This document shows positions 45,037-50,769 of a stretch of DNA of 54,981 nucleotides, in pieces. The notes below the pieces were generated by a model. The model did no database searches. It was not told the DNA's origin and was given only the letters and a program-made list of their open reading frames with translations. The position numbers were made by a program, and so were the translations under genes. Every line of letters begins with the position of its first letter. The first letter of the stretch is position 1. The stretch is from an uncultured bacterium (GTDB lineage Bacteria; Cyanobacteriota; Vampirovibrionia; Gastranaerophilales; Gastranaerophilaceae): NCBI GenBank assembly GCA_950022495.1, contig CATLLJ010000008.1, forward strand, positions 1 through 54,981, read 5' to 3'.

Positions 45037-45071
45037 AAAAAACTGCAACTGAAAAACAGTTGCAGTTTTTT
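45037..45071 (-). terminator. Terminator of the FlhA-domain operon
   Basis: Stem AAAAAACTGCAACTG/CAGTTGCAGTTTTTT (45037-45051/45057-45071), loop of five A. Lies 12 bp after the gene's stop. Confidence 0.9.
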
Positions 45072-45082
45072 ATTAGTTCAAT

Positions 45083-46561
45083 CTAAATTTCACCTAAACT
45101 ATCAATCTTAAACGAACATCCGATTTCTTCCTGAGCCAAAACCGTAATATCATTGATATACAGTGATAACAATGTGAAGAATATCTGTCTGTATTCCATT
45201 GGAACAATCAATCTTGGTGAATGAATATTTAATTTTTTAGATTTTCTTATTATTTTATTAGAAAGTTTTTCCGCAAGAGTGCCGTCAATTTTTATAAGGC
45301 AATCTTCACTCTCTTCACAACCAAGAACAATATCCGAATATGTTTTTTCAGAAAGTTCAAATGCACTAATTGATTCACCATCTTCATTCACATAATTCCT
45401 GCAAATCTGACGGGATAATGACAATCTGATTTTATTTAATATATCGGCTTTACTGCCTTCTTCTGCAAAGTCATTAATCTTTTCAAAAATATATGTAATA
45501 TTTTTAATAGAAACCTTTTCTTTGATTAAACTTGTCATTAAATATTTCAAATCAGAATATGTTAACAAGTCCGGAACTATATTATCGATAAGAAATTCGT
45601 TTTCTTTTTCTACAACTTCCAAATACTTATCAATATCGTCATAGTCCAGTAAGTCGTCAACATATTTCACTGCAACATATTCTAATGCTTTAGCAATATA
45701 TTCAGATGGAGACACACCTTTTTGCCAGAAATCTTTTGTTTTGTCCTTTTCAACCCAGATTACTTTTCTATCTGTGATTTCATCAACTGCATTAATAGAA
45801 TTTTTAATTTTATGTTCAGTATGCAATTCATCAGCATAAAACATTAAATGATTAGGGCAGACACCTGCTCTGAAAACTTCCATACCACGAATTCTTATAC
45901 TAAATTCACAGGTATTAAGATTTTCATCATCTTTAAACACAACTTTCGGGATAATATAACCCAGCTGTTCGGTAATTTTTAAACGTGATTTAACAGTTTC
46001 AGCAATAAGTTCTTCACCGGAATTATCTCTATCTGAATCAACAAAACCAAGCAATTCTTCACTCAAATAAATTGACAATTTTTCTTCATGAAGTTTTGAA
46101 TACATCAAATCCGGTGATGTTGCTTTATTAAGCTGTGCTTTTAAATCTTCCAGTTCTTTTAGACCCGCTGAAATTTTATCATTTAATTTTTTTCTTGAAA
46201 CAGAAGCCGGAGCTTCACCATCTAATTCGGATTTAATTTTATTGATGGTTTCTTTTTGATTTCTAATTTTATTTTGAATTTCAAGACATTTTTCATATTC
46301 AGTAAGTTTTGGCGACAACATTTTTTCCATCTGGCTTTTAAAGTCTGAAATACTGATAATATCACTGTCAGAATTATTTTCAGATTTTGCCGGACGCATA
46401 AAAATACAATTAAGCTGGGGAGAATCTTCATCACCCACATCATGCATACTATATAAATCCCAACCGTTCATAGACATTTCGTTCAAAAGATTTTGCAACT
46501 CTTGAGCATTATCTGCTGAACAAGTTTTAATAACATATTCCATTCTACTTTTGCCGACCAT
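45083..46561 (-). CDS. Soluble protein with DUF4177-like, coiled-coil and FlhA/SctV cytoplasmic domain
   Basis: 492 aa from ATG 46561 (AAAGGA nine bases upstream). Residues about 7-58 resemble DUF4177 (MEYVIKTC... MSMNGWDLYS). A coiled coil spans about 75-160. The rest (about 160-492) matches the FlhA/SctV (FHIPEP) cytoplasmic domain: LGYIIPKVVF then EFSIRIRGMEVFRAG (the VARGE-type step), KVIWVEKDK, VPDLLTYSDLKYLMTSLIKE then VSIKNITYIFE, SLSRQI, and the final PRLIVPMEYRQ...ITVLAQEEIG. The transmembrane gate domain is absent. It lies 7 bp after udp, downstream of bamA and skp. Confidence 0.75.
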   Translation of the reverse strand: MVGKSRMEYVIKTCSADNAQELQNLLNEMSMNGWDLYSMHDVGDEDSPQLNCIFMRPAKSENNSDSDIISISDFKSQMEKMLSPKLTEYEKCLEIQNKIRNQKETINKIKSELDGEAPASVSRKKLNDKISAGLKELEDLKAQLNKATSPDLMYSKLHEEKLSIYLSEELLGFVDSDRDNSGEELIAETVKSRLKITEQLGYIIPKVVFKDDENLNTCEFSIRIRGMEVFRAGVCPNHLMFYADELHTEHKIKNSINAVDEITDRKVIWVEKDKTKDFWQKGVSPSEYIAKALEYVAVKYVDDLLDYDDIDKYLEVVEKENEFLIDNIVPDLLTYSDLKYLMTSLIKEKVSIKNITYIFEKINDFAEEGSKADILNKIRLSLSRQICRNYVNEDGESISAFELSEKTYSDIVLGCEESEDCLIKIDGTLAEKLSNKIIRKSKKLNIHSPRLIVPMEYRQIFFTLLSLYINDITVLAQEEIGCSFKIDSLGEI

Positions 46562-46567
46562 AATCAA

Positions 46568-47326
46568 TTATCCTTTTAATATTTTTATTGCCTCAATTGC
46601 TGTTTTTATAGCTTTTTCTGTATCATGCACAACAGGATTTTCAAGATTTAGCTTTTCTCTTTCCTGATTTGCAACTGTTAAAAATACAGAACCGACTTTA
46701 ACATTCAAATAACTTGCTACAACAAATAGTGCAGCAGACTCCATTTCAGAAGCAAGACATCCGAGCTTTTTCCAAGCCTCCCATTTGTTTTGCAACTCAT
46801 AACTTACAGGTTTATCTTCAGGTGAATGCTGTCCATAGAAAGAATCCTTACATTGAACAACTCCTGCGTGATAATTGTAGCCAAGTTTTTTAGCCGCATC
46901 AACAAGAGCATTTGTCACATCAAGATTTGCAACTGCCGGAAATTCAATTGGAGCGTATTCTTTTGAAGTTCCTTCAGCTCTAATTGCACCTGTTGCAACA
47001 ACAACATCACCGCCTTTGACATCCAGAGACATACCGCCGCAGGTACCGACCCTAATAAAAGTTTCTGCACCAACTTTAACAAGTTCTTCCATTGCAATAG
47101 CCGCAGAAGGACCGCCAATACCTGTTGAAGTTACACTGACTTTTTCACCGTCAACATAACCTGTATAAGTCACGTATTCTCTATTATCTGCAACAAGCTG
47201 CGGATTATCAAAATACTGTGCAATTTTAGCACATCTTTTCGGGTCACCGGGAAGAATTACATATTTCCCTACATCACCCTGTTTTAAGCCAATGTGATAT
47301 TGTTTTCCGTCTTCTGAATAGTTCAT
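46568..47326 (-). CDS. udp: Uridine phosphorylase/nucleoside phosphorylase
   Basis: 252 aa of nucleoside phosphorylase family [42 protein letters not shown] and [14 protein letters not shown], the last typical of uridine phosphorylase; SEMESAALF binds ribose. Splits uridine to uracil and ribose-1-phosphate. GAGG precedes the ATG. Co-oriented with skp (70-bp gap with a hairpin) and the FlhA-domain gene (6-bp gap). Confidence 0.92.
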
Positions 47327-47395: not shown

Positions 47396-47845
47396 TTATT
47401 GTCCTTTTAACTTTTGGATAATCAAGTTAGTAACGTCAACTCCACCAACAAATACTACTTGATCAGATAAAATTGCATCTAATTTTTGAGCAACCATAAC
47501 TGCTTTTGCTGCAGCCTGAACTTGATTTAGAATTTGACTTTCTTTGTCTGCTCTCAATTTATATAATGCATCTTGTCTTGTTCTAAGTTCTGTTGCTGTT
47601 TGAGTTTCAAAATTTTGTTTTTTCAATGGTGTATCTAAAGATTTATATTGTTTTTCTTTTTCAAGCATATATTGCTGTAATTCTAAACCTTTAGCATCTA
47701 TTTCTTTTACCGCCTGTTGTGCAGCAGGATAATTCTCCAAAACTTTTTGATAATCTAAATATCCAACTTCTGCATTTGCACTAGTTGTAATAGATAATGA
47801 TAGACCGGCTGCTAACAACATAGCCATCAATTTTAATCTTTTCAT
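47396..47845 (-). CDS. skp: OmpH/Skp-family periplasmic chaperone
   Basis: 149 aa with a signal peptide ending near residue 25 (LSITTSANA). VGYLDYQKVLENYPAAQQAVKEI then a long charged coiled-coil (LQQYMLEKEKQYKSL... RQDALYKLRADKESQI) and VVFVGGVDVTNLII, the typical Skp fold. It escorts outer-membrane proteins to BamA. AGGAGG precedes the ATG, and it lies 17 nt after bamA, so they are co-expressed. Confidence 0.9.
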   Translation of the reverse strand: MKRLKLMAMLLAAGLSLSITTSANAEVGYLDYQKVLENYPAAQQAVKEIDAKGLELQQYMLEKEKQYKSLDTPLKKQNFETQTATELRTRQDALYKLRADKESQILNQVQAAAKAVMVAQKLDAILSDQVVFVGGVDVTNLIIQKLKGQ

Positions 47846-47871: not shown

Positions 47872-49863
47872 TTAGTATAATAAATCACCTACACCAAACG
47901 TGAAGTAACCGTTTTTAGAACCATTGTTACCCGGATTGGTAAGCGGAATACCATAATCGATTGATAATGGTCCCATGCCAGGAATAAATACTTTCAAACC
48001 GACACCGGCAGATACTGCATATTCAGGTCTGTCATACAAAGTATTTGAAACTGTACCGTCAAATACTTTACCGGCATCAGCCCAAACTGTGAATCTCAAA
48101 TTATTTAAGAATGCAATTCTTGTTCTATCTAAGAATGGAATAGGTGTTGCAAATTCAGCAGAACCCATAATGAAGGCATTACCTGTACCTACACCACTCA
48201 TTTTAAAACCTCTAACGGTATAAGGACCACCCAAACGATATGCCATAACTTCAGGGATATCACCATGAAGTGCTCCACCGCCTTTAACAGTTAAAGATAA
48301 AGATGATTTCTTTGCAATCGGAATATATTGTTTAATCATACCGGTAAGTTTACCATTAGTTTTGTCAAAACCATTCAAGCCGATATTTTCATCAAATCTT
48401 AAACTAGCCATTGTACCATGTCTTGTTACAGTAGCAGAATCTCTTGTATCGTACAACAAAGCTGGGCTTAATGATAAGAATAATCCGCCTTCTAACTGTT
48501 TAGCACGTTCTGATATCGGAATATTGTATTTGTAATACATTGAAGATATTCCGTTATAATCGCCTTCTTTTACATCAATATTTTCAACACCTAAACTGAA
48601 TGTTGATGTTGCATGTTTATTAGATTTCAATTTATGTGCAACAGTCATTTCTGCACCATAACGTCTTTCAACAGCTAACGGAACTTGATAAGAACCAAAA
48701 TCTCTGAAGAACAATCTATTGTTCAATGATGTGTCAGCATTAAAGAAATATGGTTTGAAATAACTTAATTCAGCCTGAATATTCATGTGGTCTTTTACAG
48801 ATGAATCGTTAAGGATTACACCTGTACCAACCAAACCTGTTAAAGATAATCTTTCGCATCTGCCGCGGAAGTTGTTTTCAGTAATACCCATTGAACCGAA
48901 AAGACCTGTTACGGTATCAAGACCACCGCCTACAGAAATACTTGCAGTTCTTTGTTCTTGAATTTTGATTGTAATATCATAGGCATCAGGAATTTCTTCA
49001 CTAGGTTCAATTTCTCTGGTTACATCTTTAAAAGCTTGAGTTGCATACAAACGAACTAAATCTTCTTTGATAAGATTTTCGTTATAAATCATACCCGGTT
49101 CAGTTAAGATATTACGTGCAATAATATAATCTTTGGTCTTTTCATTACCTTCAATCATAATTTTGTCAATAATACCTTCTTTAATACTTACGTTAATAGT
49201 TCCGTCCGGATCATCTGTAACCGAATCAACTCTTGCAAGTATGTAACCTTTAGTATTGTATAATTCTTGAATTTTAGAGATTGCAACATTCAATTGAGCA
49301 ATGTTTTGCGGCTTTCCTTTCATACCGTCAAATGTTGCAAGGATATCTTCTGTTGAAATAACAGAGTTACCTTCGATTGTAAAATCTTTTACAGGAATAT
49401 TTTCTTCTACAACAATTTTTACAGAAACTGTACCATCGCCGTTAGTTGTAGGGATAGCTTTCATTCGTTCTGTAAAATATCCGAGTTCATAGATAGTTTT
49501 TAAGTCAGTCTGCATCAAATCACGGGAGTATTCTCCCCCTTGTTTCATCTGCATTTTTTCCATTATCTCTTCTTGAGTAATAGAATTCAGACCGTAAAAT
49601 TCAATATCGCTGATAATTTTCTTTTCTTTATCAATTGGAGTTTGTGCAGATTGAGAAGACAAATCTGTCGGGTAATTACCTTGAGAATAATTTGGAATTT
49701 CTTGATTATTAGGAGCAGTATATTTGTCGAAAACAGTATTTGCATAATCATAATTAACTGAATCTTCAGACAATCCCATTCCACCCCATGCGTCTTCTAC
49801 CGCAAAGCTTCCGGATTGCATAAATAAGACTAAAGTCAAAGCTAATAATAATTTTTTAGTCAT
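47872..49863 (-). CDS. bamA: Outer membrane protein assembly factor BamA (Omp85)
   Basis: 663 aa from ATG 49863, chosen because the signal peptide MTKKLLLALTLVLFMQSGSFA begins there; a 16-codon extension has no signal character. Then POTRA domains (about residues 95-330: DIEFYGLNSITQEEIMEKM; FTIEGNSVISTEDILATF; IMIEGNEKTKDYIIARNI) and the beta-barrel with GGPYTVRGF-type insert (RLGGPYTVRGFKMS) and final strand (GYFTFGVGDLLY). Inserts outer-membrane proteins; its presence shows a diderm cell. Confidence 0.95.
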   Translation of the reverse strand: MTKKLLLALTLVLFMQSGSFAVEDAWGGMGLSEDSVNYDYANTVFDKYTAPNNQEIPNYSQGNYPTDLSSQSAQTPIDKEKKIISDIEFYGLNSITQEEIMEKMQMKQGGEYSRDLMQTDLKTIYELGYFTERMKAIPTTNGDGTVSVKIVVEENIPVKDFTIEGNSVISTEDILATFDGMKGKPQNIAQLNVAISKIQELYNTKGYILARVDSVTDDPDGTINVSIKEGIIDKIMIEGNEKTKDYIIARNILTEPGMIYNENLIKEDLVRLYATQAFKDVTREIEPSEEIPDAYDITIKIQEQRTASISVGGGLDTVTGLFGSMGITENNFRGRCERLSLTGLVGTGVILNDSSVKDHMNIQAELSYFKPYFFNADTSLNNRLFFRDFGSYQVPLAVERRYGAEMTVAHKLKSNKHATSTFSLGVENIDVKEGDYNGISSMYYKYNIPISERAKQLEGGLFLSLSPALLYDTRDSATVTRHGTMASLRFDENIGLNGFDKTNGKLTGMIKQYIPIAKKSSLSLTVKGGGALHGDIPEVMAYRLGGPYTVRGFKMSGVGTGNAFIMGSAEFATPIPFLDRTRIAFLNNLRFTVWADAGKVFDGTVSNTLYDRPEYAVSAGVGLKVFIPGMGPLSIDYGIPLTNPGNNGSKNGYFTFGVGDLLY

Positions 49864-49950
49864 ACTGAAATTCAAAAATAAATTCCTTAACAAACTCTCA
49901 CTACTCTCCAAAAAAATTGTAGCATAAATCGAAAAAAAAGTACAAGAATT

Positions 49951-50769
49951 TTACAACTGTTTACCTATTGCGATTTTATAAACTTTATTTTTATTAATTC
50001 CATACAATTCGGAAAGAATTACTGAAATATCTTTTGCACCGTAACTCTTGTCCTGCAATAATTTTATTTTCTGTTCCAAATCTGCTTCTGCTGATTTTTT
50101 ATCACTTCTGAAAATAAGGCAGACAAATTCTCCTTTAGAAACATTTTTTTCAAAATAATCTATAACATTCGCAACATTATCAACAACAACTTCTTCAAAA
50201 ACTTTTGTTAATTCACGTCCAACTGCAACTTTTGCATCAGGTCTGACATTTTTGATAGTTTTAAGAGTATTTAAAATTCTATTTGGAGATTCATAAAAAA
50301 CAACATCTTTTGATTCATACTGCATAATCAAATCTTCAATTTGAGATTGGACTTTTGGCAAAAAACCTATAAAAGAAAATTGTTCATCTTCTCTTGAAAC
50401 CTGTGAGAGGAAAGTGACCACTGCATTTGCTCCCGGTAATGCAGTAATAGAAAACCCTCTGGCTCTCAATTCTTTAACAATAACAGAACCAGGATCACAT
50501 ATTAATGGAGTTCCCGCATCAGAAACAAGTGCCATTTTGTTCCCGTTTTCCAAAAATTCCACGATTTGAGAAATCCTCTCTTTCTCATTGTATTTGTGGT
50601 ATGAAACGCATTTTGTCTTAATATTAAAATGATTTAATAATTTTTGAGTAACACGGCTGTCTTCACAGGCAATCAAATCCACAGATTTTAATACTTCAAT
50701 CGCCCTAAAAGTTATATCCCCTAAATTTCCAATAGGTGTAGGCACTATGTAAAAATCAAATTCTTTCAT
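49951..50769 (-). CDS. rsmI: 16S rRNA (cytidine1402-2'-O)-methyltransferase RsmI
   Basis: 272 aa of the tetrapyrrole methylase-like fold: YIVPTPIGNLGDITFRAIEVL (residues 7-27), ACEDSRVTQKLLNHF, LVSDAGTPLICDPGS, ALPGANAVVTFLSQV and KDVVFYESPNRI. It heads the bamA-skp run (87-bp gap). The ATG has no Shine-Dalgarno but is six bases after TGC-TAAAAT (50776-50784 on the complement), probably a leaderless start. Confidence 0.96.
   Translation of the reverse strand: MKEFDFYIVPTPIGNLGDITFRAIEVLKSVDLIACEDSRVTQKLLNHFNIKTKCVSYHKYNEKERISQIVEFLENGNKMALVSDAGTPLICDPGSVIVKELRARGFSITALPGANAVVTFLSQVSREDEQFSFIGFLPKVQSQIEDLIMQYESKDVVFYESPNRILNTLKTIKNVRPDAKVAVGRELTKVFEEVVVDNVANVIDYFEKNVSKGEFVCLIFRSDKKSAEADLEQKIKLLQDKSYGAKDISVILSELYGINKNKVYKIAIGKQL

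Follow-up and report, generated by a model that had tools for sequence, protein, structure and literature searches.

A soluble counterpart of the cytoplasmic domain of the export-gate protein FlhA is encoded by a conserved single-copy core gene in Gastranaerophilales, an order of gut bacteria that are related to cyanobacteria but do not photosynthesise, where it is under strong purifying selection. In this protein, hereafter called S, the membrane gate domain is absent and its place is taken by a small head domain and a coiled coil. The predicted fold, the distribution, the selection, the co-occurrence with a second, flagellin-less export system and the pattern of conserved residues form the basis for reading S as a membrane-free paralogue of the export-gate sorting ring with an accessory role in the flagellum-like export systems of the order, above all in the flagellin-less one, a reading to which we give about an even chance of being correct.

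S is encoded on the minus strand at positions 46561-45083 of the window, that is, of the whole stretch of 54,981 nucleotides that was analysed, and the coordinates proposed for it in the first-pass annotation were correct. The open reading frame starts with the ATG at 46561 and ends with the stop codon at 45085-45083. A second in-frame start, a TTG, is found at 46567; the ATG is preceded by AGGA and agrees with the start position in the family. Residue numbers are counted from the TTG (494 aa) and not from the ATG. The features of the region are collected in Table 1. The hairpin beyond the 3' end of the gene, on the minus strand, has a run of T, and terminator-like sites after S were found in 15 of 78 relatives.

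Table 1. Coordinates of S, of its domains and of the neighbouring genes in the window
Feature	Position	Strand	Basis and remarks
Terminator-like hairpin, 15 pairs	45037..45071	-	Just 3' of S; pattern match only
S	45083..46561	-	492 aa from ATG 46561; profile matches, AlphaFold model, family start
S FlhA_C domain, D1-D4	45086..46096	-	Residues 158-494; FHIPEP profile and fold alignment
S helical/coiled-coil stretch	46121..46300	-	Residues 90-149; AlphaFold helices 90-116 and 125-149
S N-terminal head, sP36/DUF4177-type, beta-alpha-beta-beta	46388..46546	-	Residues 8-60, with the modelled beta-alpha-beta-beta part at 9-59; AlphaFold and profile matches
udp-type nucleoside phosphorylase	46568..47326	-	Directly upstream of S; linkage kept in family; name by reading the sequence
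skp/ompH-like gene	47396..47845	-	bamA-skp-udp-S block; name by reading the sequence
bamA-like gene	47872..49911	-	bamA-skp-udp-S block; name by reading the sequence
rsmI-like gene	49951..50769	-	First of the conserved block; name by reading the sequence

The relationship of S to FlhA and its injectisome homologue SctV is established by sequence profiles and by the predicted structure. Residues 140-483 match positions 309-653 of the 657 positions of the Pfam profile FHIPEP (PF00771) with an E-value of 1.3e-46, and because the match starts at profile position 309, it covers the cytoplasmic part only and leaves out the membrane gate. A sequence search of the PDB recovered the FlhA_C of B. subtilis (3mix) at 4.4e-23 with S itself and at 3.7e-47 with the family profile. 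The AlphaFold model has a mean pLDDT of 80; its best 50 Foldseek matches in the PDB are all FlhA_C/SctV_C structures, and model residues 158-494 superimpose on the FlhA_C of V. parahaemolyticus (7amy) with a Z score of 31.6 over 329 residues (rmsd 2.6). In the model, residues 158-494 thus form a complete four-subdomain FlhA/SctV cytoplasmic domain, and a chance resemblance of motifs is ruled out by the FHIPEP profile, the PDB sequence match and the fold alignment. The first-pass annotation had recognised the FHIPEP cytoplasmic domain from the order of its motifs, a proposal that stood to fall with a missing FlhA_C/SctV_C profile match or a different fold; profile and predicted fold both agree with it.

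Neither the FHIPEP profile nor the AlphaFold model places the N-terminal membrane gate domain, with its FHIPEP loop, in S, and a soluble head and a coiled coil are found there instead. All 26 diverse members of the S family match the NCBIfam family Sp36 at E<=0.1 (best 7.4e-7) and 21 of the 26 reach DUF4177 at the same threshold (best 1.3e-4), in line with the suggestion that a DUF4177-like domain and a coiled coil had replaced the gate; the head of S in the window scores under the curated cut-offs of both families. The sP36 protein of Methanosarcina mazei is a hexamer and an adaptor bridging a membrane transporter and its regulator (PMC10714827). The S head matches the sequence family of sP36 in all 26 members, but sP36 stands alone as a small protein whose targets are AmtB1 and GlnK1, whereas the head of S is fused to the coiled coil and FlhA_C. 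The head alone gave no PDB fold match at E<=0.001, and the match to KCTD5, with a Z of about 6, falls in the range that is common for the fold search. Within the helical stretch, Q98, K112, L115 and N129 are invariant in the family alignment.

The absence of any flagellar gene in sight, which had been remarked upon for S, is true of the surroundings of the gene but not of the genome, in which searches found full-length FlhA, FlhB, FliP, FliQ, FliR, FliI, FliH, FliF, FliE and FlgB, FlgC, FlgF and FlgG, ruling out a genome free of flagellar genes. A single full-length FlhA is encoded in an operon with FliE, FliF, a 335-aa protein at the FliG position and FliH; a FliM/N-type protein, FliO, FliP, FliQ and FliR are encoded on another contig, FlhB adjoins a FliA/WhiG-like sigma factor, a FliI-family ATPase is present, and the rod genes FlgB, FlgC, FlgF and FlgG lie on the same contig as S, about 28 kb away. 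In this genome (G000) the set is distributed over contigs C2, C3, C4, C8 and C14 (L265, L032, L264, L209/L210 and L206). The 335-aa protein (L032:14667-15671) has no Pfam match, and several loci have related ORFs in the neighbourhood of S. Proteins at L032:7463-8524 and L211:9465-10010 have a common N-terminal motif, an MG-AASQAR-type start followed by VEFEGQQINQ-R, and one of the two is encoded upstream of the second-system FliE operon; these proteins may be cargo. The search for flagellin in this genome returned none, and no hook protein was seen, since there were only two Flg_bb_rod matches.

This second, flagellin-less and hook-less set is found order-wide in Gastranaerophilales and is the sole set in the genus of the window. 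In families f2-f7 most genomes have, next to it, a canonical flagellum, with flagellin, flgD/flgE and an FlhA and a FliP that score higher, and the second set remains where flagellin, canonical FlhA and the hook are gone. The second FlhA scores under both equivalog cut-offs (700 vs 772 for the flagellar and 589 vs 692 for the injectisome model), whereas the canonical FlhA passes the flagellar one with 851. Three further families of the class, f9, f14 and f15, have the second FlhA as well but lack S. Partial flagellar gene sets had been reported for most Gastranaerophilales genomes and a loss of flagella had been inferred (Soo et al., 2014; PMC4040986). The same order and the same kind of incomplete set are concerned here; in contrast to that reading, the set described above is a second, paralogous and order-wide one, found side by side with true flagella in other families.

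S was compared with three groups of full-length FlhA, namely flagellar, second-system and a third group from families f10-f12. Its mean identity to second-system FlhA is 0.33 in D1, 0.37 in D3, 0.17 in D2 and 0.19 in D4; between flagellar and second-system FlhA the corresponding values are 0.35, 0.35, 0.19 and 0.32. Relative to all three groups, D1 and D3 of S are about as alike as the groups are among themselves, and D4 has drifted. It is through D3-D3 contacts that the SctV ring is held together (PMC8223533). The glycine of the GYXLI motif (G368 in Salmonella), a conformational switch in Salmonella FlhA (PMC9431611), is Ser in 26/26 S proteins and Gly in 48/48 full-length FlhA. From the flagellar-type chaperone dimple set D456/F459/T490, S keeps only the first position, with Asp in 25 of 26 members; at the F459 position 20 of 26 have Thr or Ser, and none of the 26 has Thr at the T490 position. 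Second-system FlhA retains Tyr/Phe at the F459 position in all 21 sequences and Thr at the T490 position in 13 of the 21. In the flagellar system, altering this cleft, as in F459A, weakens motility and the binding of chaperone-cargo complexes (PMC5932034). Set beside FlhA/SctV, S has in common the four-subdomain fold, the D1/D3 sequence, the conserved Trp of the WI motif and a short linker before D1; it differs by the missing gate with the sP36-type head and coiled coil in its place, by the GYXLI and dimple replacements, and by scores far under the equivalog cut-offs of FlhA (148.7 vs 772.1) and SctV (87 vs 692.25).

The loss of the dimple could mean that S has left export altogether. S might then be a cytosolic ring working in envelope biogenesis or metabolism, with the head and D1-D3 as a scaffold and the bamA-skp-udp operon showing its workplace, a reading that we consider improbable, though worth weighing. 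Besides the dimple and glycine replacements, it draws on the gene neighbourhood: the order rsmI-bamA-skp-udp-S is kept in nearly all of the 80 family loci with contigs that reach that far (udp in 79, bamA and skp in 77 each, rsmI in 71), and the gap between udp and S is mostly a few bases. The linkage to bamA and skp, already pointed out in the first-pass annotation, is a conserved operon-like block in the family. For a terminator in the skp-udp interval of the window, only 5 of 77 relatives have a counterpart, too few to take it as a conserved boundary. Against the envelope or metabolism reading, a nucleoside phosphorylase gene sits between skp and S, and in the other families examined S lies away from bamA and has different neighbours, so that the outer-membrane assembly role once suggested retains the neighbours of one family only. 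Moreover, in genus g7, S lies about 146 bases upstream of fliJ-fliK-flgD-flgE (gene names by reading the sequences) and heads this cluster; in f3 and f6 the same operon has no S in front, and the linkage between S and fliJ is confined to one genus. The evidence from neighbours on the role of S is split between bamA-skp-udp in the family and fliJ-fliK-flgD-flgE in g7.

Soluble derivatives of an export-gate protein are not restricted to S. FlhX, a soluble paralogue of the FlhB C-domain, has a spare-part role, and to our knowledge no head domain has been added to it. FlhX shares with S that it is soluble, is paralogous to the cytoplasmic domain of an export-gate protein that is also present in full length, and lies near fliK in one lineage, but it derives from FlhB and S from FlhA. 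It is listed among the flagellar export proteins, and as flhX-fliK (PMC9321776). In a limited literature search, neither a soluble paralogue of FlhA_C nor Gastranaerophilales export systems other than flagella turned up as the subject of a paper. Short soluble FlhA derivatives of 285-335 aa (L038:10146-11036, L039:8286-9143 and L041:9972-10979; also in G195 and G209) consist of a helical N-terminus, a linker, D1 and D3, with D2 and D4 deleted; they are sporadic and no export neighbours were seen. A 289-aa soluble FlhA_C-like ORF of another order of the class (G088, L234:478-1347) lies directly downstream of the second-system FlhA. By analogy with FlhX, S might be a spare part or competitor for FlhA_C that tunes export by swapping into the gate ring or by titrating its partners. 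The complete D1-D4 of S, with D1 and D3 retained, and the recurrence of short soluble derivatives in the class, including the one next to the second FlhA, speak for this explanation; nevertheless, we regard it as distinctly unlikely, given that S carries invariant residues of its own (S169, E171, W281 and G284), unlike a plain duplicate, and is an old separate branch. A quick tree separates S, as a single clade, from the three FlhA groups (SH-aLRT 100); long branches meet there and the exact attachment is unsure, and a recent origin of S by duplication of the second-system FlhA is unsupported.

A sample that spanned the class yielded the head and coiled-coil module of S, in reading frames some 490 aa long, from 135 of 136 Gastranaerophilales genomes, a count that assumes that all unlisted non-matching genomes belong to other orders, as their sorting suggests; in one of the genomes the module is split across two contigs. 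None of about 96 genomes from other orders of the class in this sample contains it. The distribution of the full-length S model agrees with that of the module, and the loci matched by a genome scan for S come from Candidatus Melainabacteria, Gastranaerophilales or uncultured bacteria. G257, the sole sampled Gastranaerophilales genome without S, has the second-system FlhA locus. A genome (G035) that seemed to have S without any full FlhA was also empty in the FliF search, and a missing contig is the simpler reading. Within the genus, the dN/dS of S is 0.045-0.088. That S is a leftover from the loss of flagella and no longer has a function, as the functional loss inferred from partial gene sets by Soo et al. 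(2014; PMC4040986) would allow, has next to no credibility in view of this dN/dS, which rules out a relic or pseudogene, of its intact length in 135 of 136 genomes, and of its presence in flagellated families as well.

In the accessory-ring reading, which we prefer, the head and the coiled coil would hold several S chains together in the cytosol, replacing the membrane domain, and contacts between D1-D3 would either build a ring or allow S to join the second-system FlhA ring, by docking on it or by mixing into it. With its changed chaperone site, S would not take standard chaperone-cargo complexes; it would be an adaptor that links the gate, for example, to the FliH-FliI ATPase or to a cargo specific to the lineage, or it may regulate the gate. 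The position of S beside fliJ-fliK-flgD-flgE in genus g7 speaks for this reading, as do the short soluble relatives that keep only D1 and D3; the bamA-skp-udp block, in which S stands apart from export genes in the family, counts against it. The occurrence of the second FlhA without S in three other families and in G257 indicates that S is not essential to the second system in general, and the co-occurrence of both within one clade can be shared descent alone. A bolder proposal, offered tentatively and judged less probable than not by some way, concerns an undescribed secretion system that would derive from the flagellum, lack flagellin and hook and still be used by most gut Gastranaerophilales: S would be its dedicated soluble ring for sorting or coupling, and the gate ring would here consist of two separate layers, one bound to the membrane and the other free in the cytosol.

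The new adaptation of the export-gate ring that had been suspected takes the form of a soluble protein in which the FlhA_C/SctV_C domain is kept and a coiled coil and an unrelated head stand in place of the gate. In FlhA, a membrane protein, FlhA_C is the part known to dock substrates, and S is a conserved soluble version with an adaptor-type head of its own that exists alongside the full-length protein across the order. It would be a natural separation-of-function experiment on how far oligomerisation, chaperone docking and ATPase coupling can be uncoupled from the gate, and it suggests that common gut bacteria have a second export machine, one that was earlier read as the remains of a lost flagellum.
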